64,000 nucleotides of DNA from Saturnia japonica. Its lineage: Eukaryota > Arthropoda > Insecta > Lepidoptera > Saturniidae. The notes under the pieces are model-generated. The model did no database searches and had not been told where the DNA came from. It saw only the letters and a program-made list of their open reading frames with translations. This document shows positions 173-40,475 of this stretch, piece after piece. The DNA lies in NCBI GenBank assembly GCA_033032175.1, contig CM065319.1:13861018-13925017 (forward strand), given 5' to 3'. Numbering within the stretch: the first letter of the stretch is position 1; the number at the start of each line of letters is the position of its first letter. Made by a program: the position numbers and the translations under genes.

Positions 173-3100
173 ATAGAAGAACCGGAGCAGACTGGCGATG
201 GCCCGGAGAAGAAAATAACCAGGTTGGCGATCGGCGTTGAGGGCGGGTTCGATCCTGAGTGTGCAAAACAAAAATTCACATACACGGACCACTATAGTAT
301 TGTTGTTCTGCCTGGATTTCACACATATCCGTGGCCTAATAGGGACTTACCTGAAGTGGTAATTTTATTTCATATTGATATTGAATTAGTGATGGGCATT
401 TGGTCACAACCTCACTTCATGATAAGTAACTACTAACTGATTCGTGCAAATATTACGCATATTAACAATCTAGAACGTAAATGAATGTAAACAATGTTAC
501 AACAGCTGTCACAGCAATAGATGCCGTTACTCATATGCTGGTTGAATGTAATCTCATTAGAAATTATTAAAAAAAAAATTTTTTTAGCCATTTGTATATT
601 TTTTATCAATAGCGGGTAACATAGTAAGATGTTTGTATCATTATTTTTGTTGTAAAATTTAGGGACATAATAATATGGCGTTGCCACAAAAAATTTCTTT
701 GATAAATGTTACGAGAGATGTATCTATCTGATAACCTAATAGGCATAAAAGAAAGCTGGAATTTAGTTTAAATGCCGTAATATTTTAATAGGCCCATGGG
801 AACGCGTAAGACCGTGTTGAGCACCTACATAGTGGCGGATTTTTGATTTGTACGCTATAGCCTAGTTATGTGATCGGTGGTAAATATCTTGTCATTGTGC
901 TATAGATATATCACAATGTTTTCTTTCTCTAAAACTTGGGCACATAGAATTTGAATTTCCATACTTAGGCGAAGAGCACGTCATCGAATAAAAATATGAT
1001 CTATACAGCATAGCGATGGGTGATTTAGAAAAAAATCGATTTTCTTTGAATATCGAATTTAAAACATCCATATTTTGTGCTAATTTGACGACCTTTCTTT
1101 GGGCTACCTCTAGCTAAAGCTAGAGTTAAAACATGGGCTAGCCTTTTTAGGAGAAATTGCTTTTTTTTTTATTTTGCTTATGTATGGCTCGAACAATCTA
1201 CAATAGATACATGTAGAAAAATTAACTTCCGATGTTTCATGAGAATCTAATATTGTTTGTTAAAACATCAATAAATATTGATCATCCCTAATTCATTTCC
1301 CCTTTAGAATATTGACTATCAAGTATAACCATCTTTAGTTAATTGATTTTTCTCAATTTTGCAGTTAAACAAGGCAGTACAAGCTTTGATTGATGCCGAG
1401 TCACCATTCAAGATTGCTGAAATGGCAGCTTTGCAAGGCACGTGGGATGGTGAGCAACGGGAAGTGTCTGTGTAAGTAATCAAGCGGGGTTGCACAGATA
1501 TGTACCTAACTGGGTCACAACAATGATGCGGTGTCAATGAACCTGGAACAGTTGCTCTCTTTTGGTTTGTGGCGTTTCGGGATCGACAAGGTTTTCGATT
1601 TCGATCGTGTTTGGTTGTCTCTTCGTCTCCCATGCACGCTCGGCACAGGAGGCTTTTAGAAACACCTGAATTTTAAAGGTGTGCTAGCTATTCTTTGCTC
1701 ATGTCCTGTTAAGGCTCCATGTGTGGTGATCCTTCGTGCTTGATGTTTTTTAAAGTGTAAAATGTCTTTGGAGATCTTGAGGATAGCAAGAGGCAGTAGT
1801 TCAGCAACAAGCTAGTTGTTGACAGTCTATCAGACTGATCCACTATATATCTCTGAGTCGTGTCGTTCTCCAAAGTATTTCTGTTTTGATTCAGAAACAT
1901 AGAAAAGTATCTGAATAAATCCCTAATATTCATAGGAATGAGAGTAATTTAAGCAATGAAAAAATAGGATGTTGTTGCTTGGATATTTTAATATTTGTTA
2001 TAAATATCGGATTTTTACGAACCATGGTATGTACTACCCTGTTCCAAAACCTTTTGAATGTGCTACCCAGACATGCAGTTAATTTGAAACAATTGGACAA
2101 CGGCGTTCGCATACCACCTTCAGGATGGAAATGCTCCAAGTGTGACCTCACGAATAACCTGTGGTTGAATTTGACGGATGGCTCTATACTTTGCGGGAGG
2201 CGGTTTTTCGACGGTTCCGGCGGCAATGATCACGCTGTATGTATTCATTTTAATAATCATTATTGAACAACTTGCTGTACCCGCGGCATCGATCGCTTGG
2301 ACGACAAGAACGTGTAATTCTTATAAAAATCGAAGTTTCTTAAAACTCTAATAACATTCTATTGAATGAAGATATCGTGTTTTTTTTTTTTAAAGCGGAT
2401 TAAGTGTATGGAGTGAACGAAACAAAAAAGGTCAAAATTAGTCCAATAGTTTTTGCATGATGCACGCACAACGGGAAACCTCTATCATTTTATTTATATA
2501 AATAACACCGGCTTCTTCACGCCACGTAACATTATTTTTATGTGTGGCATATTAATCCTTATGAGTGAAAGTTATTTCATCTTCAAGACAATTTTATTGA
2601 AATAAATTTAGCCCTTATTATCATGTTCTTTGGATGCATAGTTCGGAAGATAATGGACAATTAAAATAATTCAACACGAACAACTACGAACAGAAAGTGG
2701 CATGAACGAGCTTTATGAGCGTGATGCATGACCCTGACCATAGTAGCCCTATAAAAAATATTGTCTAATTATGACACGTGTGAAACCGCGTGGAACAGCT
2801 AGTTTAAAATAAATAAATATGTAAGGGACACAATTTTACACATGGAGGTTTGATTCTAAACAACTGATAATTGTGTTCACCAGTTACCACCTAAAAGTCA
2901 TTTACGGTGATCGAATCCGCGACCTCTCGGCTAAATAATAGTGCTTACTACCACTGCGCCACGAATCTTTAACATTATATTTGTATCTAGACTCCCAAAA
3001 AGTAAATTAAAGTAAAGTAGTTAATGTTCACTGCAATGGAATTTTGATGTTATTTAAATGAAATGTTGACATCGGTAGATTTTTCACAGGTAGAGCATTA

Positions 3101-6100
3101 CCGAAATACGGGTTATCCCCTGGCGGTGAAGCTTGGCACTATAACAGCTGACGGCAAGGGAGACGTGTTCTCGTACGCCGAGGACGACATGGTTGAGGAT
3201 CCGTTCCTCGCGGACCATCTGAAACACTTCGGCATTAACGTACAGCAATTGCAAAAGGTAAATATACTATTATCCTACTATACACTAATGAAATATCTAG
3301 AATTGTCTAGAGTCAATAAGCTCTGTATAAATTTGTGTGTGAATTTATAAAGAGCGTTCGCCGCCGCCGCGCGTCAATTCTCGGAACGCACACATTGAAA
3401 CTATCGGTTAAAGTATCCTAAGCGAACACAAGTGCGTCGAAGCAATGATGGCTCAGTGGTGGTGTGTAAAGATGAACGTCAGTTCGCATCCCTGCAAAGA
3501 GCCTGAGCTTTCGGTGAAGGAAAATATTCTGATGAAACCATAACATGGTAGTAGGGATTTTTTCTCCCTCAACTTGGAAATCTGTCGTCGAGCACCAATA
3601 GGTGTCTTCCGGCAGTTACACTTGAGAGCCAGTCTTCCACTAAGCGTATCGTGCTACCAACTTGGTTCACATCGTCAATTAAGATTTGGTGAAAATGTGA
3701 TCATAACACTGTACCTATGACGATTAAAAAAGTCTTGAAATATCCACCCTTCGTTTATCAGTTGGGAGAGTGTCAGTAAAGAAACAAATTCCATTAAATT
3801 ACTCTCGGTATTTCGACCCCTCTTTTTAAACAGATATCCGTGTCACATCCTGAACGTGTTATATTGATTATATTTATATTTTTTCTATTCTATTTATTAC
3901 GTTTTGACATTTAAATTTAATAAAATCCAGAGAGTGTAATCGATTTGGCAAGTGAAGCATTCATATAATATTTCCACAGACAGAGAAATCTATGGTAGAA
4001 TTGGAACTAGAGCTGAACCAGCGTACTGGCGAATGGAACACCCTGCAGGAGTCTGGAAGCGATCTGCGACCATTACACGGACCTGCACTAACCGGGTTGA
4101 ACAACCTCGGCAACTCTTGCTACATTAATAGTGTTGTTCAGGTATGTATCTTTTTTAGATAATAGCACAGCATAATGACGTCACTTTGCCTGAAGGTAAA
4201 GTACAACCAAAAACACTGGCAAACACCGAGAGATTGACAAGAAATGTTATGTAAAGAAATAGTGTGAGTGTATTTCCAATAAGATAGACCACAAACACAA
4301 TAGTCTAAATCCAATGGACTTCATAAATGATAACTTTCAACAAAAATCGATTTTTACAAATAAAGTTACCAGATTTAACTTACACTACATTATTTATTGT
4401 GTGGTTATGTTAAAACTGAAAGTTTCTAAAATCATGACACCTTAAAGGTCTATAACAGCAGATATAAAGATCATTTTAAAACAAAATCACCCATTAAAAA
4501 TACTAAAAATACAAAACTGTTAACTAAAAGAGTTTTTTACTAATTGTATCCAAAAAAATGACTGTTATTAAGAACATTTGAAATCTAATAATTAAATTCA
4601 GCGTTTTATTTTAAATTTTAGACACGGGGTTCCTAGCAATATTTATTCCTTCCAACCTACATTATCAATTATCGTAATAAAATAACATAAGTTTTTATTT
4701 GACAAAATGATTAGGGTTTGATTCCCAACTCGTGTATCTTATACTAATTCTTGTATTATATGAGTAATTCCATTACTTTTCGAATGATTTCTCAGGAGGG
4801 GTCGTGTCGATTTTGCTTTAAGTTTTTTGATGTACTTTATAAAAATGCAATCTTATTAAAAAAAATTAGCAAAAAATATTAAGTAAAAAAATTATATTTA
4901 TTATGGATTTTAACAAAGTAGAAAGTAATAGAAATTGGGCCAAGAAAATGCTTGACAGTTATAGTTGTAGTCCAATTGTTAAATTGTGATAAGATTTCGG
5001 GTTGATACAATTCATACTGGAAAGTCAAAATTAGCGATTTTTCAGAAATTCCCAACTTTGAAACGGGATACTAAGATCACTGTACGCACATAATTTTTTA
5101 TAGGTTTCTGACTTGAAGGGAATACATTAACGAAAAAAATGAGCGATATAGAAAGAAAATCGGTTGGAAATTGAATTTTTGGTGGGCATTTTACTGAAAT
5201 TTTTATTTTTTCTTAACTCTGACATAAAAAAGGTCAAAATTTTTTTTTTCATGGATTCTGTAGGCTACCATAAAGGAAACCTGATTTGAATCTGACTTGA
5301 AATTTTTGAAAATAGGAGGAAAATCGTGATTTTTGAACATTTGAAAGGCTCATTCTCATCATCTAGGGCCCTTAGAGGTCTGAAATTTGGCATGTGGGGG
5401 GACTCTTTATGAGGTATTTCGAGGTTCTCGACGTAGAGCAAAATCGATAGACCCCTTCCGAGAAATCATTCAAAAACTAATGGATTTATTCATAAACAAT
5501 GTAATTGGTGTCTCGGAAAGTGCTCCACCGTTTTGGGTGAAACTTTGTATTTAAATAATGTTTTGGATTCCAAGTTTACCTAGATAGATGTTTTTCTTTT
5601 TTTTTTCTGTAAGACACCGAGTGTAGCTTGGTCGTCCAGATATTAACTTATTATTTGTTCTTATCTTTTAAATTTATTGTCATGATTCTTTACAACATAT
5701 TTCTCTATCTCTCATAGCTTCAGCGTTCGGAGTAACTGACCCATCTCAATGTTACACTCTGTATATCATTTTGACAATATAATACCTTTTTAGGTTATAT
5801 TCCGGATGCCAGACTTCGTACGAAGATTTGTAGAAGGCGCTCCAGAGATTTTCTCGACTTTCCCTGAAGACCCTGTCAATGATTTTAACGTGCAAACGTA
5901 AGTAAAGTCATAAAGTCACGTTTACGTTTTTAATAATAAAATTGAGTATTAGCTATGTATTTCCAAATGCTTATACTTTGTTTATCGTAAGAAGGCCTGA
6001 ATTAATTATCCACAGAACGTAAATTGTTATATCATGAAAATTACGAAATAAACTATAAAAAACAAACATTTTAACTATAAATTGTCGTTATTCTGATACT

Positions 6101-9100
6101 AATAGACATTATAAAAACATTTTTCAAATAAAAATATATACTTACATCATTCCCTACATTTTTACTGCAGCAACACGCAATGATGAATATTGACTGAAAT
6201 AATTAATTTTGTTGTTTGGCGTCAGGCATTCAGTAATTAAAATGTTCCCGATTGCAATTGTTCTTCTTCTTGTTTTGGCGTCGCAAAAAGCACTTGCCAG
6301 TGTCAATTTGAATCGTGTCTTCGTAAACATAGTGGGGTCTTGTCAGAACTATCCAGGGAGTTTTTGTGACATCACAAAATGAATATTTTCCGCTTTATAT
6401 TTAAAATTAATTTCACTTATGCCCTACAACCAAACTATATCACGCAAAATGTCACCAATATTTCATAATATAGCGTTAAAGAAAATTAGTTAATGACTTT
6501 AAAAAAAAACCACACCAGGACCCACCAAAGAAAAAACAATTGCTATTGTTATAGTTTATTTTTGTTATTTCATTTACACAGCTCACACGCCCCTCTAATG
6601 ATTTGTAGCATAATTGTATTCTCGATTATATTTAGCTGAAAAAAAGAATCGATAATCGAAAAATCAACTACCAGTTTAAGTTGTTCTACATCTCTAAAAT
6701 AAACATTTGACATGTGTCATGCAAGCCTTCTTAGGATGATTCAAGTATAATAAAGAAAGGCTAAATTGCTTAATGATTATTAAATATAACTGAACTATAT
6801 TTCTGTAAAAACCATCCGTCAGCTAGTCTCATTTTATACTTGTTTTGGGTGCGTTATGAAAAAATTACAGAGTATTTTTTTCCTTCGGCCGCTTACCTCT
6901 TAAAAATGATAAGGCATAGGTACACACACTTAACTTTTGTAATTATTTTGTTTCAGGGCAAAGCTAGGCGTGGGTTTGTTATCTGGCAGATATTCGACTC
7001 CAAGCGAAGACGGGTCCCAGTCGGGAGTGTCCCCGCACATGTATCGTAACCTTGTGGGCCGCGATCACCCAGAGTTCATGACCAAGCGGCAGCAGGACGC
7101 GCACGAGTTCTACCTGCATCTGCTTACACTCCTGCAGGTTCTTTTTTATATACATACTAGCGATGCCCTGCGGTTACACACGCGTCTGTTACTAAGCGAT
7201 AGTTATTTACACCCGGTAATTTTATTTTGACGTATAGTATATCAATTGAGGAATTATATACGTTTAAAATTATGTATTATTATTTTTTCTACGATTTCTA
7301 AATGAATTATTGAGTATTCTATTGGATAATAATTATAGATTGATATATACTTCCCTTGTACGAAATTCTTCAAACTTGGTGGGCATTTAAATAAAAACTT
7401 ATTTTTTTAATTTTTAAAAGTATCATCGCTAATTCTTATAGCCTATCAATTGACCAATGACAATCGTTTTCCGTATACAAATTTTTATAAAAAATCGGTC
7501 AAGCCATTTATGAGTTAAATCCAGACAAAAAAAATTTACATGAAGACAGACAAAAATTTCAAAAACCATCGAAATGTGTTCTGTCTATAATTCTAAACAC
7601 CCCATAGTATTTTTAATTTTTTTGATGATCTTCGATGTACAGATTTCGACTCTTGGCTCTTTATTATCAGCATAGATATATTATTTTATTATAAATACAT
7701 ACATATATATTATGATTAAATAAGGGGAAGTTATCGTTGTAATAGAGGCACAGCCGTCACAAGCCGAACCCGGCAGACTGCCTCAAGTTCAGCGTGGAGG
7801 AGCGCATGCAGTGCAGCGAGTCCGGCGGAGTCCGTTACACGACGAGGGCGGAGCACCATCTGCCGCTACCTGTGCCCGTGCACGCGGCGACCAACGCGCA
7901 CCAAGTCCGCGACTACGAGCAGAGGAGAGCGCAGGCCGAGGCCGCGGGGCAGAGATTGTTAGTACTTATCATTTTTTAAGTGAAAACTTCTATAGTACCG
8001 CTTTGATTTGAAAAGCCATTAAAGAGTTTCCTTTTATTTAGTTCTTCTCTTGGTACGTGTGTGCGTCTGCGTATTACGAAGCCTTCGGAAAAGGCGTCAT
8101 AGCCAGCGTTGTGTATTGTTCACGTGTATAGTTTATGTGAATATTTTTATGTTTGCTAAAGGTTTCACATGTTCCACATGTGAACTTCAGGTGTTTTTTT
8201 TTTTATTCATATGAAATCTCTTTGGGAGATTTCTCACTACTTGGAGCAGTTCAACTGGTGCAGATCCTCAAACCTATAGAAGATCGTAGCCGAATATCCT
8301 TGTGTTAGGTTTCTGCGGTGAGTTAGGCTTCCAGAGTTCTTTGGGGCGAAAGGATTCGAGGTCGGCAAGCGCTAGTGATACCTCTGATGTGACAAGCGTC
8401 CAAAGGCTATGGTAATAGCTTACCATCAAGCAAATCGTAAATTAGGACGGGAGTAAAAGCGTTCTGATGGATGGGACGTCGCTAAGTGCCATTGGGCAGC
8501 ATCGCGTCTGGTCGGCTGTTTCAGACTCGGCTTTCCCCTCAATATTAATACTGAACGCTTATGTTACTACACACACTCGTTACTTTACGTGTGTGTTAGT
8601 GTGTCGGCATGCTTTCTTATGCTAACACTAGCTGTGCCTCACGGTTTCACCTGTGTTAATTTTATACGACAAACATCGCCAATGCACTTGTGTATGCAAT
8701 TATTTTTACTTTGTATTAAACTATCGACATTTTTATGATTAATAAATTAATTTTTCTAATTATATTGTAGCCTATGTTACTCGCTGATATTGTAACTTTA
8801 TATTGGCGAAAGAATTTTTAAAATTGGTCCAGTATTTTTTCCTCTTTATAATATTGGTATAGATTAGCATAGCTAGTTTAAGTGTGTGTGTGTGTGTGTG
8901 TGTTTTTTTGTCTTTATGTATTCATATTTCAATATTATTTCAAATTTGCATCACATAACATACCATGACGCCCGTATCCCCAAAGGGGTTAGGTAGAGGT
9001 GTACTAATGTACACCTAAAGTTCGCCGCGTTTTTTTTAAGTCCCATGTAAAGGGGGGCAAGCCTAACACCATTAAACTACGGGCTGCTACTGAGAATTTC

Positions 9101-18190: not shown

Positions 18191-19206
18191 TTATTTGAAA
18201 CGATCTACCCATTTGGGTATCTTTCTCATAAATATAGTCTTCTCATCAAAATATGTGTTAAACTTCTTATAGTCCCTCCGCTTTGTGGGGTCTTTTTTAC
18301 AATTCTCTGGAGTTAAATTAATCATTAGACCTGAAAAGAAAATGATTTTAAATTTTAAAAATTTAGTAACTATTACTTTATATAATATATATCATACTGT
18401 AGTAAGTCAACCCAGCCATAGTATTACTTGATGCTGTGGCATACATCTCCCATCTAGGCAATACAAATTTGCAATGAAGGTTGTATATGCTTGGGTTGTT
18501 TGTTTGTTGAATTTGACAAGAAGAGGTCTGGCTAGTGTGCATTGACTAGGATTATGTAAAACATTGTAGTAGTTGAATAAACATTGTTGTTATCTGCAAA
18601 CTACCGTTATTTATGTGATTGAGCTAGCTTGACGAAATTACTAGTTTTTCATTGCATATTTCTTACTCATAAGAAATGAGCTGATAAGGTACATTACTAT
18701 TACTTTTATAGGTAAAACGAACCTGCTTTTTGTGCCATTGTTACCATTTTCCCAATCTTCTTCTGTTGCCTACGGCATAAACCTGTTATCCTTCGTGGCA
18801 GCATACATCCATCAGATCTGACGAACTGACTCAGAATGAGTACGTCTGTGTGTTTTACATCTAGCCCTAAAGAACACATGTAGCAGGGCGGTTTTTCAGA
18901 CTTTGGAACATTCAGCAACGACACGTCAACTTCTGCAGGCAAAGAGCTCAAGTTTTCTACTCTAACGAGAAGGTCTGTTCTTGGAGAAGGTACGTTTACC
19001 CCTTCCACTATTAATGTCGTGCCCTCAGTTCGTTCGCGTACTAAAACAAAATTTGATTTATAGGTTATGTGACTATTACTACCTATTTATTTATTTACAG
19101 CCTTACTTTCTTTTATTTTCATCGGGTTTGTCGTTGAAACAGTGCGTATTGATGTAAATAATGCACTTTTTGCAAAAGAACGACTAGCCCTTACAACAAA
19201 CGCCAT
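18191..19206 (-). CDS. mRpS18A: Mitochondrial ribosomal protein S18A (S18/mL66 family), 3 exons
   Basis: Exons 19107-19206, 18723-19040 and 18191-18330 join cleanly (100 + 318 + 140 nt, 185 residues plus stop). The ATG at 19206-19204 opens an Arg/Ser/Thr-rich, acid-poor N-terminus (MAFVVRASRSFAKSALF), as expected for a mitochondrial targeting peptide. The diagnostic core is in exon 2: CYMCSLGLDVKHTDVLILSQ, then FVRSDGCMLPRRITGLCRRQ and KMVTMAQKAG. Exon 3 encodes LMINLTPENCKKDPTKRRDY and ends DEKTIFMRKIPKWVDRFK. The LSQF..GCMLPR.ITGLC block identifies the S18 family, and the exon 2 match to the insect S18A paralogue is strong. In the mitoribosome this paralogue is placed in the large subunit as mL66. 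The donor at 19106-19105 (GTAAGG) is preferred over a GTAAAT four codons later because only it keeps frame. Confidence 0.9.
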
Positions 19207-27050: not shown

Positions 27051-27056
27051 TTTATT
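27051..27056 (-). terminator. Candidate distal poly(A) signal of the 33-mer repeat gene
   Basis: TTTATT on plus (AATAAA on minus), about 600 nt beyond the distal stop at 27651-27653. It is the nearest AATAAA I see on that side. Confidence 0.35.
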
Positions 27057-27650
27057 TGAGTAATTAATGTCATAGATACTTTTTAAAAAGTGTACAAAGT
27101 AATTATGAAGAATAAAACTTCTCACAGTTTAATAATTTTTGTTTAGGAATATTATATATTTGTATAGAGTTAAAGAATTCAATTTGTTCATAATAAATAT
27201 ATAAGAAATCACAAAACTTCCCATTAATATTTTTACGAAATATCCTGACATACATATTTCTACTACTATAATATCACATTTATAACAATTTAGGCACAAC
27301 TAATAGCTCTAATGTAACATGGCTCTCTTTTTAGTAATATAGCTTATATATTGTGAGGCTAAAAGCGAAGTGTACATCGAGATAGTAATTACAACGCATT
27401 TGTAATCGTATAACATATTTATGTACAACTTATTCTGGAGAAATATATTATATATACCTATATATTATTATACATTTATATGTGAATTTCACCATGCGGT
27501 CACGATTTTATGGTAGGTATTTATATAGTACATATTATTAAAAACAATTTTATATTTGATAATATCGAGATTCTGTCAGTTTCCCAGAAATACGAGATTA
27601 AATATGGGTTGCGAAGGGGGATGAAATATGGGATGGTTGACTTGTTCGGT

Positions 27651-27740
27651 TTACTTCCCGAAGGGGCTCAAACCTTTGCTGAGCAGACCAGCGGCTCCTT
27701 GAGAAGCGTCGTGCGCCGCTGTCGATAGGTTTGTCACTAA
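27651..27740 (-). CDS. Candidate distal C-terminal exon of the 33-mer repeat gene
   Basis: A pyrimidine-rich acceptor (TTGTTTTGTTCTCAACAG on minus) precedes 29 codons: LVTNLSTAAHDASQGAAGLL, then SKGLSPFGK and TAA at 27653-27651. The small-residue helical composition fits the upstream protein, and the exon is GC-richer than its surroundings. A phase-0 donor that fits is AAT|GTATGA at the end of exon 28661-28854. Alternatively the AG at 27720-27719 gives a phase-1 exon starting at 27718, compatible with any repeat exon. Confidence 0.55.
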   Translation of the reverse strand, partial: LVTNLSTAAHDASQGAAGLLSKGLSPFGK

Positions 27741-30700
27741 CTGTTGAGAACAAAACAATTTTTACCAAAAAAGAAAACGATCATCAATGATTTTGAGGAG
27801 TTCCTTGGTTAATCGTCGGAGTCGAAGGTCCAAGGCTAATAAAATTAAAATGGGACCAACGGATATTCTTTATCATTTAAATCAGTTCACAAACAAAGAA
27901 GTTAAGGCTAAACATCCATAAAAAATACATTCGAATTGAGAACATCGATAAAAAAAATGATCACCACAATCTCACCTGATCTAAGTGCTGATGTAGTCTA
28001 AGATTGTATCACGCTATTTAAGACTGGATCGCAAGTGCTTTGCGAGAGATTTTCAACTTCATGTTGGTCGATAACCAAGAGGACATTAGAAAAAAGTCCA
28101 CCATCACGTTATAGTTTCATCACGAAGTTTTCCTTCACCAAAAGCAAAGGCATCATTGCAAGAGTTTAAACTCACGTCGATAGACGACGGTATTCGTACC
28201 TACACGCTATCACTGAGCCCACTGAACCATCATTGCTTCATTAACTAGACGTTTGTCACGGTTTCACCAACATATTGCTGTTCTCTCTCTTCACGGTTAA
28301 CGTCCACGTACAATCTTTATCTATTATTTCTCTTTTTTTGTGGCAACACCATATTTCCTATAATTCTTCATTAAATTTAATGATTCAATCGTAATTTTAA
28401 AGAGTATGTTAAATAGATTGACAGTTTAAAAATAATGTTTTCGTTAAAAAAATGATCAAAAAACTTTTTCGTTTGGAATGCCATAAACAGATGATGTAGA
28501 TACATACAAAATATATAGAAGTAATATATAGTAACGTAAATGTTTAACTAGCATAAGAGCTGTTAGATTGTTTACATTCTTTATTGTGCAAAATATTCGC
28601 ACGCATTAACTAGTAAATACTCTGGTAAATAGCGATTTAATTAAGTGTTAAATATCATACATTTTCTCTTTTCTCGTTCAAATATTTGTCGGCGTCTTTT
28701 ATCTTCGAGTCGACGACTTGCCCGGCGTTTTTGAGACCCTCGTCGGCTGCGTTCTCGACGCGTTTCAGCGTGTTGTCGACAGTGCTGTGAACCGCATTGC
28801 TGGCATCAGCCGCCGCCTTCTCAGCGGCCTTCTTTGATTCCTCCACAGCGGCGTCTGCGAAAAGGTCACGTTATTTTTATACTCTAACTAGGAAACCCGG
28901 CCACGCCTTGCTTGTAACGTTTTGTAGTCCACAGGGAACATCGATCCGATGGCTACAATACATTCCAGGATCACCCGCTAGGCTAATATGAAGATTGTCT
29001 GAAAATTACATTAAAATCGCTCTTGAAAACTAGAGTCCATAGAGAAAGAAAGAGGAATAAGATAATAAAATTCAATGAAATTTGTCATTAACTAGGTACT
29101 TTGAATGTCAAGCATGAACTTAAGCAAGAGAAAATACAACTTAGCTAAACCTCGTTATATTTAACTTAAAAGTTATAATCAATATATTTAGCAATTGTAT
29201 CTAGTTAATATAAGTATAATTTAATTCGAATTTTAATATCATCCGTGATTCACACGATAATAATAAAATTCAATTGACTCAAAGTGTCTTTGGCTGGCTG
29301 CTCATCCTCACACTTTAAAATCTAGCCGAAACGTGATAACAGTAAGGTTCTCTAGAACCTTCCTGTCACGTACGCTAGACTTGTGGAATGGGTTACCCAG
29401 CACGGTTTTCCCCCAGGGCTATGACATGGGCTCTTCAAAAAGGGATTAAAATACGGTCTCAAAGTTCAGCAACACGGCTGTAATACCCTTGGTATTGCAG
29501 TGGTCTGTACGCGACGGTAACTATTTTCCATCAGGTGGTACGTATGCCTGTTTGCGCACTTTGGCATTAAAAAAAGTGTTTAGATATCTGTCGTATATAA
29601 TCTTCGAAAATCAGCAAATTTCATTCATAGATAATTTCATGGTGATGGTACCTACTATTCAATTTTAAAATAGACTTTTCGACAAACATTATTTAGCGGC
29701 AGTGTCAATTTTGATCCGTTTTACATTGAATGGTATTTATGAATTAAAAGTGTGTACTAAAATGTTATATAGCATTAAAGATTTCTATAATAGAGCTAGA
29801 AATGAAAAAAAAATTACCTTATATATGAAATAAGTTGAAAGTTGTAATTAAGGTGTAGATTCCAAAGTCACTTCAATAATCCTAATAAAATAACGACACC
29901 ACAGAGAAAGAAAACCTTTGTTCAAACTTGACTTCTCTTTGACTTCGAGCAATAAATGGTAGTACCTAATACTTCAAAGTAAACGTGTTGATGTAATACT
30001 ACGACCTTAAAAGATTCCATTCCGATTACGAAATAATCGATATGTAAAGAATTCACATCTTGCACAAGTTTTATGTATTTGTTAACTGTGACTATTCACC
30101 ATGACCACTTTTTTATCATTTGTGCGGTACCATAACTCTTTATCCAAAATACAAGTAGCCTAGTGAAAGTCGCATCAATATCGGTTCAACCGTTTCGGGT
30201 CTTACCCGGAACAAACAGACAGACAGAAATGTAAAATATGAATGAATTTTTTATATAGGTACCTATCGTAGGTGTCATATGCATTTAGTAAAAAGCTGTT
30301 ATTTTGACATTAGTAACAGACACTTTAATTTATTAATTGTATAGATTAGCTTTTTTTATAGTGACTCTGAGAATTAACGACACTGTGCCTGATGGTAAGT
30401 ACAGTAGAACCATAGAATAAAAGCGACCTCCGAGAGATTTGCGATTTATCGCGGCTAGTCACTATGATGCCGGCGTGCAAGGATATACATTAGGCTACCG
30501 TACGTTCCAGTGTAACCGAGATTAACCTGCTTTTTAACACTGTTCCCGGCGTCCCCGCCGATTTGGTAATATATCCTAGTTGTTTATCCGTTTATAGCAG
30601 AGACTCAAAGAGTCGGGTGCGGACCCACTGTTTTATACTTTGTGTACTAATTTCATTTTTGCCATAGGAGTCCTTAACAGTGCATGGTGGTCGCGATATA

Positions 30701-33700
30701 GTTGGTTACAGATCTCGTAAAAGGATACTGCATTTATACTTTGACCTACTTGCAACTCGTTGGGCTTCTGCCTTGGCAGCTTCAGCGGCTAGCCGCGCCT
30801 TTTCCTTAGCTTCCTCAGCCGTTTTCAGCGCTTGGGCTTTCACATCCTCAGCAGCCTTCTTTGTTGTATCCACCGTAGTGTTGATAGTGTCTAAAAAAAC
30901 AATAATTAAACATTAACTTAAGCTATGACTACGTTTATATACTATTAATGCGCCAAACTTTAGACTTTTTTGTTATTTTATAAGGTAAAGCCACGGAAAA
31001 GATAAAACACGTTTTAAATTGATAAGTATAAATTATTGTCAAACACACAACACACTGTAAGTTTGTCATGAATTTAAAGTTCATTTCACAATTCGTTACT
31101 CAACAGAAACAAACTCATTATAATAATGGTGTAGGTACCAGTGGATATTTCAACTGAATTTTCGTGATCTCCAATAATTGACTCGGCAGGATCTCTTGGT
31201 CCATCAAACGTGTGTAAAAATATATTATCTATAAATAATATTATAATTGTAAAACTTATTAAACAAAAGTACTTATGCCATGATTTAAAGCTATGTTACC
31301 TTTTATGTTGAATTTTGTACCGTTGAATGAATTAATAACTTCTTTCGATGTTTCTAGTTTATATTCAATAGTTTCTGTGTTAAGATCGAGAGCATTGTGA
31401 AAGCAGAAAATTAGTAAAGCAGAAAAATTAGATTAACAATTAAATTACCTTTGTCGTTTTGTAACCCATTTTTGCTTTCTTCTATAGTCGATTCACATTC
31501 TTCATGTGTATCTATTATTGTATCTACGGAAAGAGTTAGCAAAAGAACATTAAAAGCTATGGGCCATATACCTCATGCAACCCAGACAATTTTAATATAA
31601 TATTTAAGAGAAAATTGTAGTTACTAGTAAGAGTAATGAAATTAATATTGGTATATTTATGATCTTAGATTGTTATACATGATTACAGATATAGTTCTTA
31701 GATCGTAGGTATATAACCTACCTTTGGCACCACCAACAAAAGCTGCACTCTTATTAAATAGCAATCCAGCTGTAGATTTAGAGGTATCTACAGTGCTTGC
31801 TACTATATCTACAATAGAATACCGATAGGAAATATAAATATTAATGCATAAATAGGACATAAAATCATAATTTGTAAAAGCTTTATACCTTTAGCATTTG
31901 ATACTAGTGATACGCCCTTATCGAAAGTGCACGCGGCTACGTCTTTTGTAACATCTATAGTACCATGAACGGTGTTAGAAACAGTATCTAGAAGATAGAC
32001 AAATATATGAAAAATGAATGATAATTTGATTAATTAACAAACTAACAAAGCACTACCTTTAGCTGTTCCTATTAAAGTTGTGCCTTTTTCGAAAGCACAC
32101 GATGCGACATTCTTAGTTGTATCTACCGTTGCGTTTACAGAATTTGCTACTGTGTCTAAAATGAAAGAGAATAAGCGTTTATATCCATACAATACAACAT
32201 TGAATTGATATAAACTCATTATACGAGTACTTTAAAATGTATGTACCTTTGGCACTACCAATGATAGAAGTTCCTTTTTCTACAGCTGATGCTGCAACAT
32301 TTTTTGTTGTATCTACCGTAGTATGAACAGTGTTTGTCAATGACTCTAAAATTAACAAAAGCCAAATTGTAACTAGTTCGTACCAAAAAAAAAAAAATTA
32401 TAATAATTGCTTAAATCTACCTTTTGCAGCACCGATCATGATAGTACTTTTTTCAACAGCTGAAGCTGCGACATTCTTTGTAGTGTCTACAGTTGAACTA
32501 ACTGTATTAGCCACCGTATCTATGTGTAACGAAAAATAAAAAGATCAGTAGCTTGATTTTATGAGAACTATAAATATAATCGTATGTCGCTACCTTTGGC
32601 AACACCGATCGCCGAGGTACCCTTTTCGACTGCTGCTGCCGCCACATTTTTGGTAGTATCAACTGTTGTATGGACGGTATTCACTACATTATCTATTAAA
32701 AGCCAAAATAATGATTACAAAGTGGTACTTAAAGCTCCAAAAAACTAAAGAAACTATAATTTTACTATGCTACCTTTAGCAGTCCCAATGAGTGACGAAC
32801 CCTTCACGACAGCAGAAGCTGCGACATTCTTTGTAGTATCTACAGTAGAACTAACTGTATCTACGTAAACCAAAAAACAAAAAGCTCAAAAGCTTGATAA
32901 ATTTATAAATTATGAACTATAGATATTATCACATGTCGCTACCTTTAGCAGCACCCATCGCTGAGGTACCCTTTTCAACTGCTGCGGCCGCGACATTCTT
33001 TGTAGTATCAACCGTTGTATGGATGGTATTTACTACAGTATCTAATACAAGCAAGATTAGTGATTACGAAGTGGTGCTAAGAGCTTAAAAAAAACACTAA
33101 AGAAGCTACAACTTTACAGTGCTACCTTTAGCGGTGCCAATTAGCGACGAGCCCTTCTCTACAGCAGAAGCGGCGACATTTTTTGTCGTATCAACTGTTG
33201 TATTTACAGTATTTGCAACGGTATCTAGGTTAAATAGAATAAATTAATTAAAAAAATATATATATAAAGAAAGAAATGAAAAAACAATAATAATGAAATA
33301 ATTTTATGCTACCTCTAGCGGTTCCAATAAGTGTCGTGCCCTTTTCAACAGCGGAAGCTGTGACATTCTTTGTAGTATCTACAGTTGAACTAACTGTATT
33401 AGCTACTGTATCTATGTAGAACAAAAAATAAAAAGATCAATAGCTTGATCAATTTATACATAACAAACTACATATTATATTATAGCATGTCGCTACCTTT
33501 AGCAGCACAGATCATTGAAGTACCCTTTTCGACTGTTGCGGCCGCCACATTTTTAGTAGTATCAACAGTTGTATGTACAGTATTTACTACAGTATTTATT
33601 ACAGGCGAAAATAATGATTACTAAAAAGTACTTAAAGCTCCAAAAAACTAAAGCAACTATAATTTTACAATGCTACCTTTAGCGGTCCCAATGAGCGACG

Positions 33701-36700
33701 AGCCCTTCTCGACAGCAGAAGCTGCGACATTTTTTGTCGTATCAACTGTTGTATTTACTGTATTTGCAACGGTATCTAGTTAAAATAAATTAAGTAAATT
33801 AACAAACAAGAAAAGTAACGAAACTAATGAAAAACATATGATAATTTTAAGCTACCTCTAGCAGTTCCAATAAGTGTAGTGCCTTTTTCAACAGCGGAAG
33901 CTGCAGCATTCTTCGTAGTATCTACAGTATTTGCTACGGTATCTATATACGATAAATATGTATTTAAAAAAATTAAAGAAAAAATGCTACCAAAACTTAT
34001 TTTAAGACACTACCTTTTGCGGTACCAATTAATGTTGTGCTTTTTCTAGCGTTGAAGCTGCTACATTCTTTGATTTATCTACGGTAGTGCTGACTGTGTT
34101 TGCAACGGTGTCTTTATATAATAAAAAAAAACATTGGCATTATATTACTCTAATTGAATATGTATTTTTTATGAAAATGCCGTTATTTTAATAAACAATT
34201 TAAGTTGCTGTACATAATAAATTATGTAATATTGGTATCATATTACATAGAAATTGAATTATTAAGTTAGAAATAAAGGTGTAATTCGAAACTGCTGTTG
34301 CATTATTAAACCTCAGACGTTCCCACATAACATACCTAACTTTCATATGTCTTACGTACAAAGATTTGCAATATTAACATAACACCTACCACATATTCTT
34401 AGACTGATATACTACAACTGTGATATATATGTGATACTATATCTAATATCATATTATCTATACCAGTATCTACATAATATAACTAAAGTTACGTGATAGT
34501 TATATGTAGTAATTATAATTTAATTTTATGCGATACATTTCTTGATATAAAATATCCAATCAGCTTTTTTGTATTAACAACGGCTGATATAATAATCATC
34601 TATATAAATTTACAGCTATAGTCATTTTTAATATAACCATATTAAATAAACAAATAATTTATGTTTTGGTAATGATGCAAATGTTTATTACCTTTAGCTG
34701 AATTAACATAGCTTTTTCCAGTTTCTACTGCAGAATTTGCAACATTTTTTGTGGTGTCTACTGTACTTTGCAGCGTGTTTTGTACCGTATCTACAACGTT
34801 TAGAATGGATATGAAATACATTGAAAGCATATACACAGTAACACCGTTAACTGTATCTCATGTATTTTTTACCTTTAGCAGATTCGACGTAACTTTTTCC
34901 AGTTTCAAAAGTACTCTGAGCAGTTTTCTTTGTATTATCTACTGTGCTCACTACCGTATCTACGAGGTGATAAAATAAAATTAAAAAACAATAATAAAAA
35001 AATAAAAAACAAAATATACATAAACAAAAAACATAAATATACCTTTAGCACTGTCTAAATATGATTTGCCAATGTCTATAGCAGAAAACGCTGCTGCCAA
35101 AGAGGAATCTAGTGCCATTTGCAACGTGTTTTGGGTTGTATCTAAAGCGTTAATTGGCAAAATACACAGGGTTAGTTACGGTTTACACAATCGTACGACA
35201 CAACGATAAAAACATTGTTTGCATAACGTATACCTTTAGCACTATCGACATATGTCTTTGAAGTATCTATAGCTGAACTGGCAGCATTTTTAGTACCTTC
35301 AACTGTACTTTGGACAGTGTTCGATACGGTATCTACAATAATAATAAAACAAACAATTAAATTTTAAATTATATACATACTATATAAATACTATATTTCT
35401 TATTACCTCTAGCAGATGATGCGTATGTTTTGCCTGATTCTAGAGCCGATTGAGTTATTTTTTGTGTGTTGTCTACAGTGCTCTGAATAGTGCTTGCTAC
35501 TGAATCTAAGATAAATAAATTATTTTGCATATATTATTTAGCATAATATAGTTAAATATAATTTGTATCTGGATTATAAGTACCTTTAGCACCACAAGCA
35601 TAGGATTTGCCTGTAGCAAAAGCAGATTGCGTTGTTTTTTGTGTTGTGTCTACAGTATTATAAATACCAGTAGCTACCGTGCCTATAAAAATAATACACA
35701 AATAATAAGAAAATAACAAAAATCCGTATGAATGACATTATTTCCTACACAAGTATGTAACTGACCTTTAGCACTTATGGCGTATCCTTTACTAGTATCT
35801 AATGCAAACTGGGCAGCCGTTTTTGTACTTTCTACAGTGCCATGGATTTTGTCTACGTAAACATAACGACAATTATATTTTAAAAAAATATATTATAAAA
35901 AGCGAAAGAATATAATAATAAATAAGACTTTCTTATACCTGTTCGATGTTAAGAATTAATCTAATAAATTACTTAATATTTGTATTTATTTACCTTTTGC
36001 AGAGTCGACATAAGCTTTGCCAGTATCTACTGCAGATTGTGCAGCTGCTTTTGTACCTTCAACTGTGCTACTAATTGTATCTACAATATGCATAACAAAT
36101 TTATAAGTTTGTGCGAAATTATAACTAAATTGATATTAATGATTATTACCTTTTGCTGTAGTAACTGCTGATTCGGCTGCTTTCTTTGTGTTATCAGCTG
36201 TCGTTGACAGCGTATCTAAAATGAAAAAAATATATGGTCGAAACCACATAAAAGTTTAACACTACATACAACAAGCACTTTCTCTACAGTGTTGTCTAAT
36301 TTTAAGAACAGAGTATTGTGCTGCATTTCTTATAAAACTACAAAAATAGACAATTTCTACAGTAAAAAAGCAAAAATTATTAGCGCAAATATAATGTTTT
36401 ATAACTGCTATTATAATTTTATTTACCCTACCTCAAACCTTTTTAACTACATATGTACACGTGCAATAAATATACTAAAAACTAAAAAAGTGAACTATTT
36501 TATAATCCTTGAATTGAAACAGACCTGACTTCAAAAGAAGAACTAAAGGTTGTCCTAAGAAAATCTGTCGTTACAATGATTCTAATTAATAATAAAATAT
36601 ATACCTTTAGTAGTATCGATAACTTTCTTTCCATCAGCGACGGCTTTGTTTGCAGTATCTACAGCCTCACCCGCCGCAAGTGACACCTTCGAGAGTTCCT

Positions 36701-39700
36701 TGTCGAGAGCGTCTATCGCAGAGTGTTTGGCATTGGCGGCTGATTATATAAAAAAATAATCCTTTATTTTTACTTTCACTTTAATAATTTCTCTAGATAA
36801 TTATATAGTAATCCATCTATATTCTGCACTAATATTTAACAAGTGGTAAAGTTTGTAGGAGGTTATCTCCAGAAGTACTAAAACGACTCCGAAAATTATT
36901 AGTATTAGGAAACTACCCGGGAATATATTATTCGTGAGAACTTATTATAGGCTGTTTTATTCTTTATAAGTTTTGTTGTAATTAAAGTGTACAAAGTCGC
37001 GGGGGGTTGCTAGTGTTATACATAAATAAGCAATCTTACCAGAATATCATGAAATTGGGAAAGTGATCATGATGGTGGAGATGTTTTAACACTATAATCA
37101 TTATTACATATAAAGTATAAAATATAGATGGTCATTGGTTTTATAAATACATTCTTATTTGAAGTGTAAATGTATATCAAAATATCAACATTTTCTTTTT
37201 TATTCTTTACAAACTGTGGACTACAGAATGCCTACGTGAATTTTGCTCCCCGCTCCCGGCTATTTTAAAGACAAAAATGCTTATTGTGGATGTTCCGAAT
37301 ATAAATGTATTCCCTCCTGGACTTTTTTGTAGGTCTTTTTAATGCCTATAATTATTTAGTACATTAATTTGCTATATCTCTTATGGTTTACTCAGCATAA
37401 GCCATTTAAGCGCCCGATTTGATTCACCCTAAATATTTTCTAAAATAAAAGTAGCCTAAGTTATTCTCTATAGCATCAGCTATCTATCAGTGAAAGTCCC
37501 GTCAAAATCAATCGAATCGTTTCGGAGATTACCCGGAACAAACAGACAGACAGAAAGAAAAAAATTTTAAAAATGGGCTTTTTGTTATAGGTGTCGTATA
37601 TACTTTCATATGCATTTAGTAAAGAAACTGTTATTTTGACATTACAAACGGACACTTCAATTTTATTAATTGTATATATATGTTTAGCCTTTGGTGGCCC
37701 AAGTTGGTGGCAACACGCTAAGCCTAGTTGCGATTGTCTCTTTAACGTAGTTGTCACACAACGTACAGGTGTTTGACGACAGATTTTCACCTTGAGGACT
37801 GTGGGTAGCCAGGCGGACTTTAGAAAATGTTCAACCACCATGCTATGGTTTCTTCACGATGTTTTCCTTCACCAAAAGCTTAGGTTCATTGCAAGAGACC
37901 ACGTCGATCGACGAGGTGTGGAAACAAAATATTTAAAAAAAAACGAGGAAATGATGCGTTGAGAAATCTTATTTAATAACACATAAATTTACAGTGCAAT
38001 AAAATTGTTAGTGACTTATGTGAACTCGCAATTATCTATTGCATGCAACTCACGTGTTTCGTCATTTTATTATATTTTAAATATTTAAAGCTTTTTAGTC
38101 CGTTTTTTAAAATGGTACCATATTAAAAATATTTTTTTACTTGTTCTTTTTAATTTTTTTAAATATAATATACAAAATTATATTTATCCGGATCTATTAT
38201 ACCCATTTAATTATTTGTGTTATTTGATGAATAACACTAATTGTTATTATCATAAGAATTTTCTTTAACTAAAGTATGAGTTTCAAGTCACAGGAATAAA
38301 GTGAAGAGACAGTCATCATTTCATCATTAGGTTTATCAGCAAGATTCGTACATTAACAAAGAATGTTGTGTATATAATTGTTGTTCACATTATTTTCGAG
38401 GTTAATTACCCTTTGGTTTAAGTATTAAAACATGCATTAAAAAAGATAAGATTGAATTTTTTACTTGTCCGGTTGAAATTCTTGCAGCTTTTGTCGGCGA
38501 CAGCGATGTTTTGCAAATACATGTTTTCTAAAATAAAAGTGTAATGGTACCTATTTGATTTCAGAAATACGTGTAATGCTTTATCATTGATATATATATT
38601 CAACGTGTCGAAAGCTGTTTGGAGAATTACCCTCTATATTCGGTTAGAGGTGAAAAGAAGGCAATCTGTTCCAAATTGTTTTTACCAGAAGTAATACCGC
38701 CTGCATTGTTTGTGGTGACAGAGACTGAACTATCGGTGCATACAAATGCACATTGCACAATGTAAGTAATTAGTTAATTACACATTTATGATGACGCTAC
38801 ACCTGTATCTAGATCATTATGTATTCTGTAGAATGTAAATCGCATTTTCTTAATAATTTAACTTTTTATATTTTATTTCAAGTAGGTATTTATTTAGTTT
38901 TAGTGTTATTCGCGCTCAATGGCAAACATCTAATCATTTTATTTAAACTTATGATCGCCCTAAGGTCGTAATTCGACCAGCGACTTTTTGATCATAGACT
39001 ATTTTCTGTTTGACATTTACAGTATTCATAAACAATGAGTATTATCTAGGGAGTTTTTAGTGGGATCTTGAAGTGACATGTTATGGTTTTTATTTTTAAT
39101 TCAATAACTTAGGTTTTTGACCCTATATTATGTAATATTAGTGGCGTTTTGCGTGATATAGTTTAGTTTTTGCGCATAAGTGAAGTGGATTCTAAATATA
39201 AGCTGAAAGCATTCATTCTGACGTCTCACAAAATCTTCTTAGAAAGTTCTAACAAGGGAGCCACCATCTTGTTAGGATACTGAAACGTCATAACACAAGA
39301 CATATAATTCACTCGATAATGGCAGTAATGGTCTTCATTAAAGAGGACCGGTTGCCAAGTTAGGAAGAAGAAGAAGAGAAAATTATTAATCTACATCACT
39401 TGCTGTCACTTTTCGTTGAGTGACAATATCAATATTTTAGGGGGTCTAAATTCGAACGGAACTGGTCAGGTGAGAATTCGCAGTATTAATTTATCTAATT
39501 TAATATATTAGTAACAGATATTATAGATAAATTTTAGCTTTCTGCACTCCTTCTCCATATAAACTTTAACTATGCCAAATCTCTGTCTTCCGTGCACGCA
39601 ATACGCTTAAAAAGCGGTAGAAAGCTTTTGCTTCACGTATTAATATATAGATAGATAGATTGAATATAGGTAAACCTGTATCAGCAGCATCTGTTGCAGA

Positions 39701-40297
39701 CTTCTCAGCTCCGCCGATGAGTTCGCCGGCTTTCTTAACCTGATCTTCAACTACATGCGCCGCTTCTTGCACTTTCTCCTGTGCGATTTGTTCAGCGTCT
39801 TTCTTCTTGCGGTCAAAGAGAGACGCAGTCTTCTCGCCGATGCTGCGGAACGCGCCTGCACAAACACATACATATTTTATTTATTTTATATATTCTCTCA
39901 AAGAATTATTTATAATAAATAATAATAAAATTAAACTAAAAATTGTGTTTAAATAATAATTAGCATATAATTAATCTTAATTAGAGATACCACAGAAATT
40001 ATTTAATTATGAATTCATGTTTTTCAATAAGATTTGTCTTTTTTCATTACAATTGGTCTCGATATCTTGAAGGCCGTGAATTTTAAAATAGTGTTTACTT
40101 GCACTGGTGTCTTGCTAGTTTGTCACGGTAGAGTAATTTTCCTAACTGATGGTAAAAAAAAATTGTATATGTGTGGCGTATCACAGCCTAAATATATTAT
40201 TTTATTAATTTAACTAACTCCTTAATTCATTAATATTTATTATAAATAATTGAGTTAAAATACCTATGAGACATACGAGTATATAAGCTTTCAACAT
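27651..40297 (-). CDS. Predicted secreted 33-mer amphipathic-repeat protein, about 30 exons; function unknown
   Basis: I do not recognise the gene. Exon 1 (40264-40297) gives MLKAYILVCLIG, a signal-peptide-like start. Exons 39676-39855 and 36605-36739 give a charged, Ala-rich N-terminal domain. Twenty-five repeat exons follow between 36215 and 31300, then 30750-30890, 28661-28854 and probably 27651-27740. All junctions checked are phase 1 except the last proposed one. Skipping the frameshifted exon 34014-34111 gives about 998 residues with the distal end, or 970 with the stop at 28655. The repeat consensus is DTVANTVNTTVDTTKNV followed by AASAVEKGTSLIGTAK. It is rich in Thr, Val, Ala, Lys and Gly, almost free of Cys, Trp and Pro, with apolar residues every 3-4 positions. 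Perilipin-4 33-mers, exchangeable apolipoproteins and LEA group 3 are structural analogues, not shown homologues. A lipid-surface or protective extracellular role is inference. Confidence 0.8.
28050..28235 (-). mobile_element. tRNA-derived SINE (family D), minus fragment
   Basis: Contains TTTCATCACGAAGTTTTCC, TTCACCAAAAGC and ACTCACGTCGATAGACGACGG, the reverse of the family D head at 3430. It lies in the last proposed intron of the repeat gene. Confidence 0.45.
28580..28585 (-). terminator. Proximal poly(A) signal of the 33-mer repeat gene
   Basis: AATAAA on the minus strand, about 70 nt past the in-frame stop at 28655. It supports an isoform ending there without splicing to 27740. Confidence 0.5.
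28655..28854 (-). CDS. Penultimate/terminal LEA-like exon of the 33-mer repeat gene
   Basis: Acceptor TTTTCGCAG, then AAVEESKKAAEKAAADASNA and VHSTVDNTLKRVENAADEGL, KNAGQVVDSKIKDADKYLNE and KRENV-stop. It is highly charged, Ala/Lys/Glu-rich and predicted helical, and keeps an HSTVDNT echo of the 33-mer. If read through, the protein ends at 28655 with a poly(A) signal at 28580. If the GTATGA at 28660-28655 is used as a donor, coding ends at 28661 and continues at 27740. Confidence 0.85.
29300..29575 (+). mobile_element. LINE 3'-end fragment
   Basis: Contains CGTACGCTAGACTTGTGGAATG, TACCCTTGGTATTGCAGTGG and ACTATTTTCCATCAGGTGG, a tail pattern of insect non-LTR elements. Intronic, non-coding. 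Confidence 0.45.
30175..30350 (-). mobile_element. Partial copy of the ACAGACAGACAG repeat
   Basis: Carries TTTCGGGTCTTACCCGGAAC, AAACAGACAGACAGAAA, ATGCATTTAGTAAAAAGC and TTATTTTGACATTAGTAAC, all seen at 36945-37690. It lies in the intron before exon 28661-28854. Confidence 0.55.
30750..30890 (-). CDS. Repeat-to-tail transition exon of the 33-mer repeat gene
   Basis: Phase 1 in and out (141 nt). It begins with one partial repeat (TINTTVDTTKKAAEDV) and changes into a charged Ala/Glu/Lys helix (KAQALKTAEEAKEKARLAAE, AAKAEAQRVA), an LEA-like 11-mer style. The donor is GTAGGT at 30749-30744. The next exon completes an Asn codon. Confidence 0.85.
33497..33595 (-). CDS. Repeat exon with mutated splice acceptor
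   Basis: The exon body is intact (VVNTVHTTVDTTKNVAAA, TVEKGTSMICAAK), but the acceptor dinucleotide is AA (plus TT at 33596-33597) where sister exons 33041 and 32692 have AG. The next AG, 33588-33587, would start the exon at 33586, 9 nt shorter and still in frame. Confidence 0.75.
34014..34111 (-). pseudogene. Frameshifted repeat exon (98 nt)
   Basis: It starts like its sisters (TVANTVSTTVDKSKNVAAS) with good AG and GT borders. One C is missing from the Gly codon after the Glu-Lys pair: plus GTGCTTTTTC near 34036, against GTGCCTTTTTC in the exon at 33856. The shift gives TAA within a few codons. Because the exon is otherwise phase 1-1, skipping it restores the protein. Confidence 0.75.
36605..36739 (-). 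CDS. Exon 3 of the 33-mer repeat gene (45 codons, non-repeat)
   Basis: Acceptor TTATATAATCAG, then ANAKHSAIDALDKELSKVSL and AAGEAVDTANKAVADGKKVI ending DTTK. It is predicted helical. The last part (VDTANKAVADGKKVIDTTK) already resembles the repeat register, so it may be the ancestral unit from which the array grew (inference). Confidence 0.85.
36945..37690 (-). mobile_element. Long copy of the ACAGACAGACAG repeat, CTAGT-type end
   Basis: On plus it runs from GTCGCGGGGGGTTGCTAGTG through CCCGCTCCCGGCTATTTTAA, GTAGGTCTTTTTAATGCC, CCCGTCAAAATCAATCG and ACCCGGAACAAACAGACAG to TTATTTTGACATTACAAACG. It is colinear in reverse with 56540-57005 and 63690-64000, and in part with 1-155. Helitron-like by its ends; no protein. 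Confidence 0.6.
37695..37920 (-). mobile_element. tRNA-derived SINE (family D), minus
   Basis: Contains ATGGTTTCTTCACGATGTTT, TTCACCAAAAGCTTAGG and the head CACGTCGATCGACGAGGTG. It sits directly beside the 36945-37690 repeat in the intron before exon 3. Confidence 0.5.
38955..39660 (+). mobile_element. Interspersed repeat C, interrupted by a GAA-tailed SINE
   Basis: The left part (AATTCGACCAGCGACTTTTT, CTGTTTGACATTTACAGTAT) stops near 39045 and the right part (CACTTGCTGTCACTTTTCG to TTGCTTCACGTATTAAT) resumes near 39393. Uninterrupted copies lie at 41720-42030 and 53950-54310. It ends just before the donor of exon 2. Confidence 0.65.
39045..39385 (+). mobile_element. GAA-tailed SINE inserted into repeat C
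   Basis: Starts AGGGAGTTTTTAGTGGGATC and ends CCAAGTTAGGAAGAAGAAG. TATTATCTA on the left and TATTAATCTA on the right look like a target-site duplication. Confidence 0.65.
39676..39855 (-). CDS. Exon 2 of the 33-mer repeat gene (60 codons)
   Basis: Acceptor GTGTTTGTGCAG, then AFRSIGEKTASLFDRKKKDA, EQIAQEKVQEAAHVVEDQVK and KAGELIGGAEKSATDAADT, phase 1 in and out. It is charged and helical with an LEA-like pattern and no repeat core. The split Gly codon joins it to the signal-peptide exon. Confidence 0.88.
40264..40297 (-). CDS. Exon 1: start codon and signal-peptide core of the 33-mer repeat gene
   Basis: The ATG at 40297-40295 is the first ATG after the predicted transcription start. It encodes MLKAYILVCLI plus one base, and the donor GTATTT follows. 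Joined to exon 2 it gives MLKAYILVCLIGAFRS: a short Lys n-region, then a hydrophobic core, then a small/polar c-region. That is a plausible secretory signal. The cleavage site cannot be fixed by eye, and a membrane anchor is the alternative. Confidence 0.75.
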
Positions 40298-40441: not shown

Positions 40442-40475
40442 TGAAAACAAGTCTCAACCCAGACCAGTTTTTATA
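40442..40475 (-). promoter_or_regulatory. TATA-box promoter of the 33-mer repeat gene
   Basis: TATAAAA on the minus strand at 40475-40469. An initiator-like TTCATTA has its A at 40442, 33 nt downstream. This gives a 5' UTR of about 145 nt without an upstream ATG. TATA promoters in insects often mark strongly regulated, tissue-specific genes (general knowledge, not shown here). Confidence 0.6.

Follow-up and report, generated by a model that had tools for sequence, protein, structure and literature searches.

A one-repeat-per-exon gene encoding a giant protein of weakly amphipathic helix in the moth Saturnia japonica, a probable counterpart of silkworm BmPlin4

Introduction

The amphipathic helix of perilipin-4 has been described as exceptional for its length and repetitiveness (PMC5889406, in part). 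A split gene on contig CM065319.1 of Saturnia japonica that encodes serial repeats built on 11-mers raises the question of what its product does, whether it is related to the perilipins by descent and whether it leaves the cell. The initial annotation of the locus read it as a secreted giant protein of amphipathic 33-mers, perilipin-4-like in design. The present analysis covers a window of 64,000 nucleotides, the whole stretch of DNA analysed, and positions are those of this window. Two neighbours were seen in it. Exons with zf-UBP and UCH domains at 1919-7230 (plus strand) probably belong to a single ubiquitin hydrolase gene, which we take to be probably of the USP5/13 type. A stretch with a ribosomal protein S18 domain at 18706-19086 (minus strand) presumably represents one exon of a gene for a mitochondrial ribosomal protein.

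Gene structure

The gene lies on the minus strand from 40297 to 27651, where 31 exons join into an open frame of 1025 amino acids that closes with a stop codon at 27651. The joined model has a mass of 105 kDa and a pI of 5.7. The positions first assigned to the ATG (40297), the donor (after 40264), the start of the second exon (39855) and the end of the stop codon (27651) were exact, and the hydrophobic start encoded by exon 1 and the charged flanking helices (E2, E3, E30 and E31) are present as the initial annotation had described them. Exons are numbered E1-E32; the frame-shifted E13 is omitted from the joined model, which leaves 31. The features are as follows.

40442..40475, minus strand: candidate core promoter with TATAAAAA at 40475 and the initiator TCATT (TSS 40442)
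40264..40297, minus strand: E1, first coding exon, MLKAYILVCLI and the first base of G, a signal-like hydrophobic start
39676..39855, minus strand: E2, charged helix exon, 60 aa, without Pfam match
36605..36739, minus strand: E3, charged helix exon, 45 aa, without Pfam match
34692..36215, minus strand: E4-E12, nine "early" repeat exons of 22, 29 or 33 aa apiece, all phase 1-1
34014..34111, minus strand: E13, repeat exon of 98 bases that has lost one base, omitted from the model
31722..33942, minus strand: E14-E26, thirteen "late" repeat exons, consensus DTVANTVNTTVDTTKNVAASAVEKGTSLIGTAK
31139..31523, minus strand: E27-E29, degenerate repeat-like exons of 25, 25 and 30 aa
30750..30890, minus strand: E30, charged helix exon, 47 aa, containing the peptide that corresponds to the BmPlin4-F primer
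28661..28854, minus strand: E31, charged helix exon, 65 aa, containing the BmPlin4-R primer site
27651..27740, minus strand: E32, last exon with the stop codon, C-terminus ...SKGLSPFGK

Phase 1 is used by 29 of the 30 introns of the model and phase 0 by the last. All 28 internal exons from E2 to E30 have a length divisible by three, a tally that is partly by construction because the candidate-exon scan admitted such lengths only. The introns between E4 and E26 (n = 21) measure 69-141 bases in 20 cases and 749 bases in the one around E13. The acidic exons E27 and E29 each have a net charge of -6, and structure prediction for E31 alone gave one continuous helix. Downstream of E32, ATTAAA is found at 27133 and AATAAA at 27056. 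Dispersed repeats lie inside the long introns, at 37251-37679 and 38937-39652 (E2-E3), at 30093-30348 (E30-E31) and at 28032-28187 and 27749-27941 (E31-E32), and copies about 70-91% identical to them occur in other parts of the window.

History of the repeats and selection

The array carries one 11-mer-based repeat per exon in 22 in-frame exons (E4-E12 and E14-E26). Fourteen of these repeats are 33 residues long, six are 29, one is 30 and one is 22; the 29-residue repeats lack four residues within or beside the first 11-mer. The repeat consensus first proposed is correct; by way of correction, E13 cannot be read in frame. The original count of about 25 repeats is reached only if the degenerate E27 and E28 are added to the 22 in-frame copies and the frame-shifted E13, which make 23. 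Outside the exons of the model, E13 apart, the best tblastn match had an E value of 0.042, and Tandem Repeats Finder gave no row spanning the array. Between E12 and E13, a stretch following an AG (34480-34441, minus strand) resembles by eye the start of a decayed repeat exon; it was not recovered by tblastn. Multi-repeat blocks compared with their introns included are 64-73% alike, which suggests that they may stem from old multi-exon duplications. Since the repeat exons are of phase 1-1, the frame would survive the gain, loss or skipping of any copy whose length is a multiple of three.

Some copies show damage. E13 (34111-34014) has 98 bases as against 99 in 14 of the 22 other repeat exons, one base having been lost. 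In E16 (33586-33497) the acceptor is gone from its usual position and an internal AG is required, which scores -0.2, lower than the 29 other acceptors scored. Together with the degenerate E27-E29, these lesions are what a decaying or untranscribed array might show, and such an array would be very improbable given that the joined frame is open, that the internal exons are all divisible by three (28/28, with the reservation on construction made above) and that selection acts on the protein. Among the late 33-residue repeats (n = 9, 36 pairs) the mean pS was 0.705 and the mean pN 0.168 (pN/pS 0.24), and among the early ones (n = 5, 10 pairs) the means were 0.626 and 0.347 (pN/pS 0.55). All 36 late and all 10 early pairs, 46 of 46 within-group pairs, had pN below pS; the comparison used the 14 of 22 repeats that are 33 residues long, leaving out eight shorter ones, and its pairs are non-independent. 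Because synonymous sites between repeats are near saturation, the likeness of the repeats in amino acids looks old and maintained.

A probable silkworm counterpart

For a Bombyx mori gene named BmPlin4 ("Perilipin-4", XM_021348604.2), the published oligos comprise a pair of qPCR primers and two guide sites (PMC12025131, in part). All four oligos translate, in one frame each, into peptides of the Saturnia protein. The F primer gives EDAKEK against EEAKEK in E30, IKDADK is found in E31, and the other two give HNTKKAA against DNTKKAA in E4 and GAATVEK against AAATVEK in E16. The peptide scores of the four oligos were 26-30 and were equalled by none of 200 shuffles for each. Control primers from the same table of PMC12025131 scored 22 at most, and none of 16 scored as high as the BmPlin4 oligos. 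At the DNA level, the R primer matched 17 of 20 bases at 28683-28702 in E31, where no such match was expected; R alone of the four oligos beat its shuffles and the other three fell within the shuffle range. On the evidence of these published oligos we conclude that the gene is most probably the counterpart of silkworm BmPlin4. The initial annotation could name no insect gene of this architecture; this was wrong, as BmPlin4 matches through all four oligos.

Knockdown of BmPlin4 has been reported to reduce lipid droplets in BmN cells (PMC12025131, in part). The sites of the published guides are repeat-like motifs where multiple cuts are possible, and the specificity of the phenotype could be lower for that. 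Among the matches listed in a search of the open-licence literature, no title or start of an abstract dealt with the exon architecture or a signal peptide of an insect Plin4. In Nilaparvata lugens, LOC111045917, annotated as "Perilipin-4", has been reported to rise after fungal infection (PMC10232905, in part).

Relation to known protein families

The Pfam perilipin profile (PF03036) matched the whole protein with 16.3 bits and the array alone with 30.2 bits, neither reaching the gathering score of 33. The best stretch covers profile positions 72-154 of 403 and falls in the array. For the array alone, E values were 3.1e-7 for Perilipin and 3.4e-7 for Apolipoprotein; since three of three composition-shuffled arrays gave no profile match, the match to perilipin exceeds composition. 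Central amphipathic repeats of 11-/33-mers, a feature of the PLIN family, are present. No PAT domain, the N-terminal part of PLIN proteins, was found by Pfam, with E2 and E3 free of any match. For the C-terminal cleft/4-helix bundle, E30 and E31 alone gave no perilipin match, nor any Pfam match above cut-off, and the best stretch of the whole protein lay in the array; this comparison was by sequence, with E32 searched as part of longer queries. The protein likely works like perilipin-4. Descent from the perilipins is not shown by a match that is confined to the repeat part and lies below the Pfam cut-off.

The Apolipoprotein profile (PF01442) gave an E value of 2e-5 and 24.8 bits for the whole protein and 30.6 bits for the array, with a gathering score of 90 not reached. 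Exchangeable apolipoproteins are built of proline-punctuated 11/22-mers, and the punctuation expected of such a protein is missing here, the array having no proline in 688 residues.

Several other profiles were touched. The bacterial family Rv1893 matched the array alone (1.2e-7, 31.9 bits), above its own cut-off of 27 and slightly better than perilipin, and was unlisted for the whole protein. In NCBIfam, searched with the first 328 of 1025 residues, lipo_Ag473 gave 7e-8 and 33.3 bits against a cut-off of 100, and a PHA granule protein gave 0.0029. E31 had weak Pfam matches to EutC (0.023) and Phasin (0.054), and the designed repeat protein 7rdr matched E31 with E32 (E value 5.6e-5) without a stretch passing alone. 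All six were taken as probable likeness among Ala/Lys/Val helices and set aside as a group.

Searches for homologues gave no confirmed match. The 1025-residue model had none at E <= 0.001 among the 7987 predicted proteins that shared most words with it, candidates being picked by words taken from residues 1-500. A query of 452 of the 1025 residues gave 111 pattern matches in viral contigs and 85 in GTDB contigs, of which none was confirmed. These results are uninformative on conservation in insects, because the collections presumably hold few or no insects. Rfam gave no match at the gathering score.

Properties of the helix

Over the 22 repeat exons the 3-11 helix moment averages 0.267; the hydrophobic fraction is 0.366, the aromatic fraction 0.025 and the charged fraction 0.193, and Thr makes up 19%. 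Vertebrate Plin4 has been assigned a moment of 0.257 and fractions of 0.35, 0.002 and 0.15 for hydrophobic, aromatic and charged residues (PMC5889406 Table 1, in part), and other lipid binders have higher moments, 0.39 for ApoA-I, 0.35 for Plin3 and 0.30 for synuclein (PMC5889406, in part). The agreement with Plin4 is approximate, as the present moments were taken per exon on the Fauchere-Pliska scale and those of PMC5889406 with Heliquest. Measured against its own shuffles, amphipathicity exceeds z = 2 in 15 of 22 repeat exons; two, E6 (z -0.14) and E10 (z 0.91), are not amphipathic by this measure. The mean profile has a moment of 0.270 against 0.106 +/- 0.054 in 2000 column permutations, whose maximum was 0.338.

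On a helical wheel drawn from 20 of the 22 repeats, without E4 and E16, one flank carries 74% of the 61 basic residues (K/R), and the back of the helix, across from the apolar face, carries 92% of the 61 acidic residues (D/E). In most repeats the net charge is zero. Plin4 repeats have been reported to carry +1 each, and reversal to -1 turned a four-repeat construct cytosolic (PMC5889406, in part). The positive charges of Plin4 are also one-sided, and redistributing them weakens droplet binding (PMC8064757, in part). The perilipin-4-like design that had been proposed at first sight gains quantitative support from the helix moment, the composition and the one-sided lysines.

A group-3 LEA-like stress protectant, filling or shielding instead of coating lipid, would also be made of 11-mer helices and could have charged flanks such as E2, E30 and E31. 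The reading is improbable, as no LEA family appeared among the Pfam matches of the whole protein, the charged flanking exons or the array, the array is just 19% charged and as rich in Thr, and the apolar face is conserved across repeats.

Exon 1 and the destination of the protein

An upstream exon must supply the start, because E2 has no Met. The most hydrophobic eight-residue stretch of the protein is formed by E1 and the first residues of E2. The 64 kb hold 13 TATA-initiator pairs (nine on the minus strand and four on the plus strand), and two of them lie in 46000-40200, the second more than 3 kb farther upstream than that of E1. The E1 leader of 145 bases is free of ATG, as are 8.8% of 2556 windows of equal length. 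On both strands of the 64 kb, 122 open mini-exons (55 + 67) run from an ATG to a phase-1 donor at least as good as that of E1; 94 of them encode at least eight residues and four are as hydrophobic as E1. Among these four, a TATA-initiator pair within 300 bases is found at E1 only, by a limit that was chosen after E1 had been seen.

The hydrophobic stretch of E1 measures about nine residues within a presequence of 12-13 residues, which is short for a signal peptide. At 3.9 the E1 donor is weak (the 29 others range from 2.7 to 12.9), and the ATG stands in a poor context. In 46000-39856 there are 75 open candidates from ATG to phase-1 donor, and three of them, E1 included, have a donor as good as that of E1. 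A hydrophobic alternative at 44244-44175 has a better donor (7.4), and no TATA-initiator pair lies within 300 bases of it. N-glycosylation sequons number eight in the protein against 13.7 +/- 3.2 in shuffles, of which 39 in 1000 were at or below that number, a count that speaks for neither destination. We put the chances that exon 1 directs the protein into the secretory pathway at about even.

Two versions of the lipid-coating function proposed below, each compatible with it, differ in where the coat would act. In the first, the protein would coat cytosolic lipid droplets only, inside fat-storing cells like vertebrate perilipin-4, with exon 1 unused or non-functional as a signal. The droplet loss in silkworm cells (PMC12025131, in part), the short presequence, the poor splice and start signals of E1 and the rival first exon at 44244-44175 favour it; the promoter pair of E1, its leader without upstream ATG, its being alone among four equally hydrophobic mini-exons in having such a pair within 300 bases and the need of the Met-free E2 for an upstream start exon argue against it, and we hold this version to be possible, short of probable. 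In the second, a working signal peptide would lead a giant protein resembling an exchangeable apolipoprotein to extracellular or ER-lumen lipid or wax. Exon 1 with its candidate promoter and the phase-1 intron immediately after the hydrophobic stretch point that way, as may a firebug saliva protein, compared by annotation, that is called "perilipin-4-like" and has a predicted signal peptide (PMC12825922, in part). The same short presequence, weak donor and poor ATG context weigh against export, and the loss of cell lipid droplets after knockdown is most simply explained by a cytosolic protein; this version, too, is possible, short of probable.

Proposed function

Overall, it is fairly probable that this lepidopteran gene is the counterpart of BmPlin4 and encodes a giant protein of weakly amphipathic helix which covers neutral-lipid surfaces much as perilipin-4 does. 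Adsorption to lipid is supported indirectly, by the properties of the helix and by the BmPlin4 knockdown reported for silkworm cells. The proline-free array would be unfolded in water and would fold as a 3-11 helix once many repeats meet a phospholipid-poor lipid surface; neighbouring helices could then lock, one-flank lysines against back-side acids. A bolder reading, which we regard as rather unlikely, is that a giant helix of the perilipin-4 type arose in insects separately from that of vertebrates, through duplication of a symmetric exon with one repeat, and acquired a signal peptide, the protein being exported and replacing phospholipid on extracytosolic lipid or wax.

It is also possible that the silkworm gene called "Plin4" does not descend from the perilipins and that its product begins with a signal-like stretch; both points affect the interpretation of the knockdown. 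A gene in another phylum that pairs the same weak helix and a comparable flank of lysines with a different exon layout would offer a natural second experiment on oil binding.

Comparison with known systems

With BmPlin4 the protein shares the oligo peptides in E4, E16, E30 and E31, the two having been compared at the oligo sites alone; the available parts of PMC12025131 make no mention of repeats, exons or a signal peptide. Group-3 LEA proteins are similar in their 11-mer periodicity and charged flanking helices, whereas the present protein has no LEA profile match and its array is Thr/Val/Ala-rich with a conserved apolar face. The likeness to apolipophorin-III and the exchangeable apolipoproteins is weak (PF01442 below cut-off; 1eq1, E value 0.029). 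Unlike them, the protein has a proline-free and far longer array with a moment of 0.267 versus 0.39 for ApoA-I. Like vertebrate perilipin-4, it has 33-mers made of three 11-mers in some 20-30 copies and very weak amphipathicity (PMC5889406, PMC8064757, PMC7360652 and PMC12809094, each in part), few bulky residues and lysines on one flank. It differs from vertebrate perilipin-4 in its mostly neutral repeats, its higher aromatic fraction (0.025 versus 0.002), its signal-like start and its lack of PAT and C-terminal matches. Human perilipin-4 carries its 33-mers in exon 3 (PMC7360652, in part), and for the mouse gene an intron within the repeat-bearing exon has been left open (PMC12809094, in part); in the moth, in contrast to the human gene, each repeat occupies a phase-1 exon of its own.
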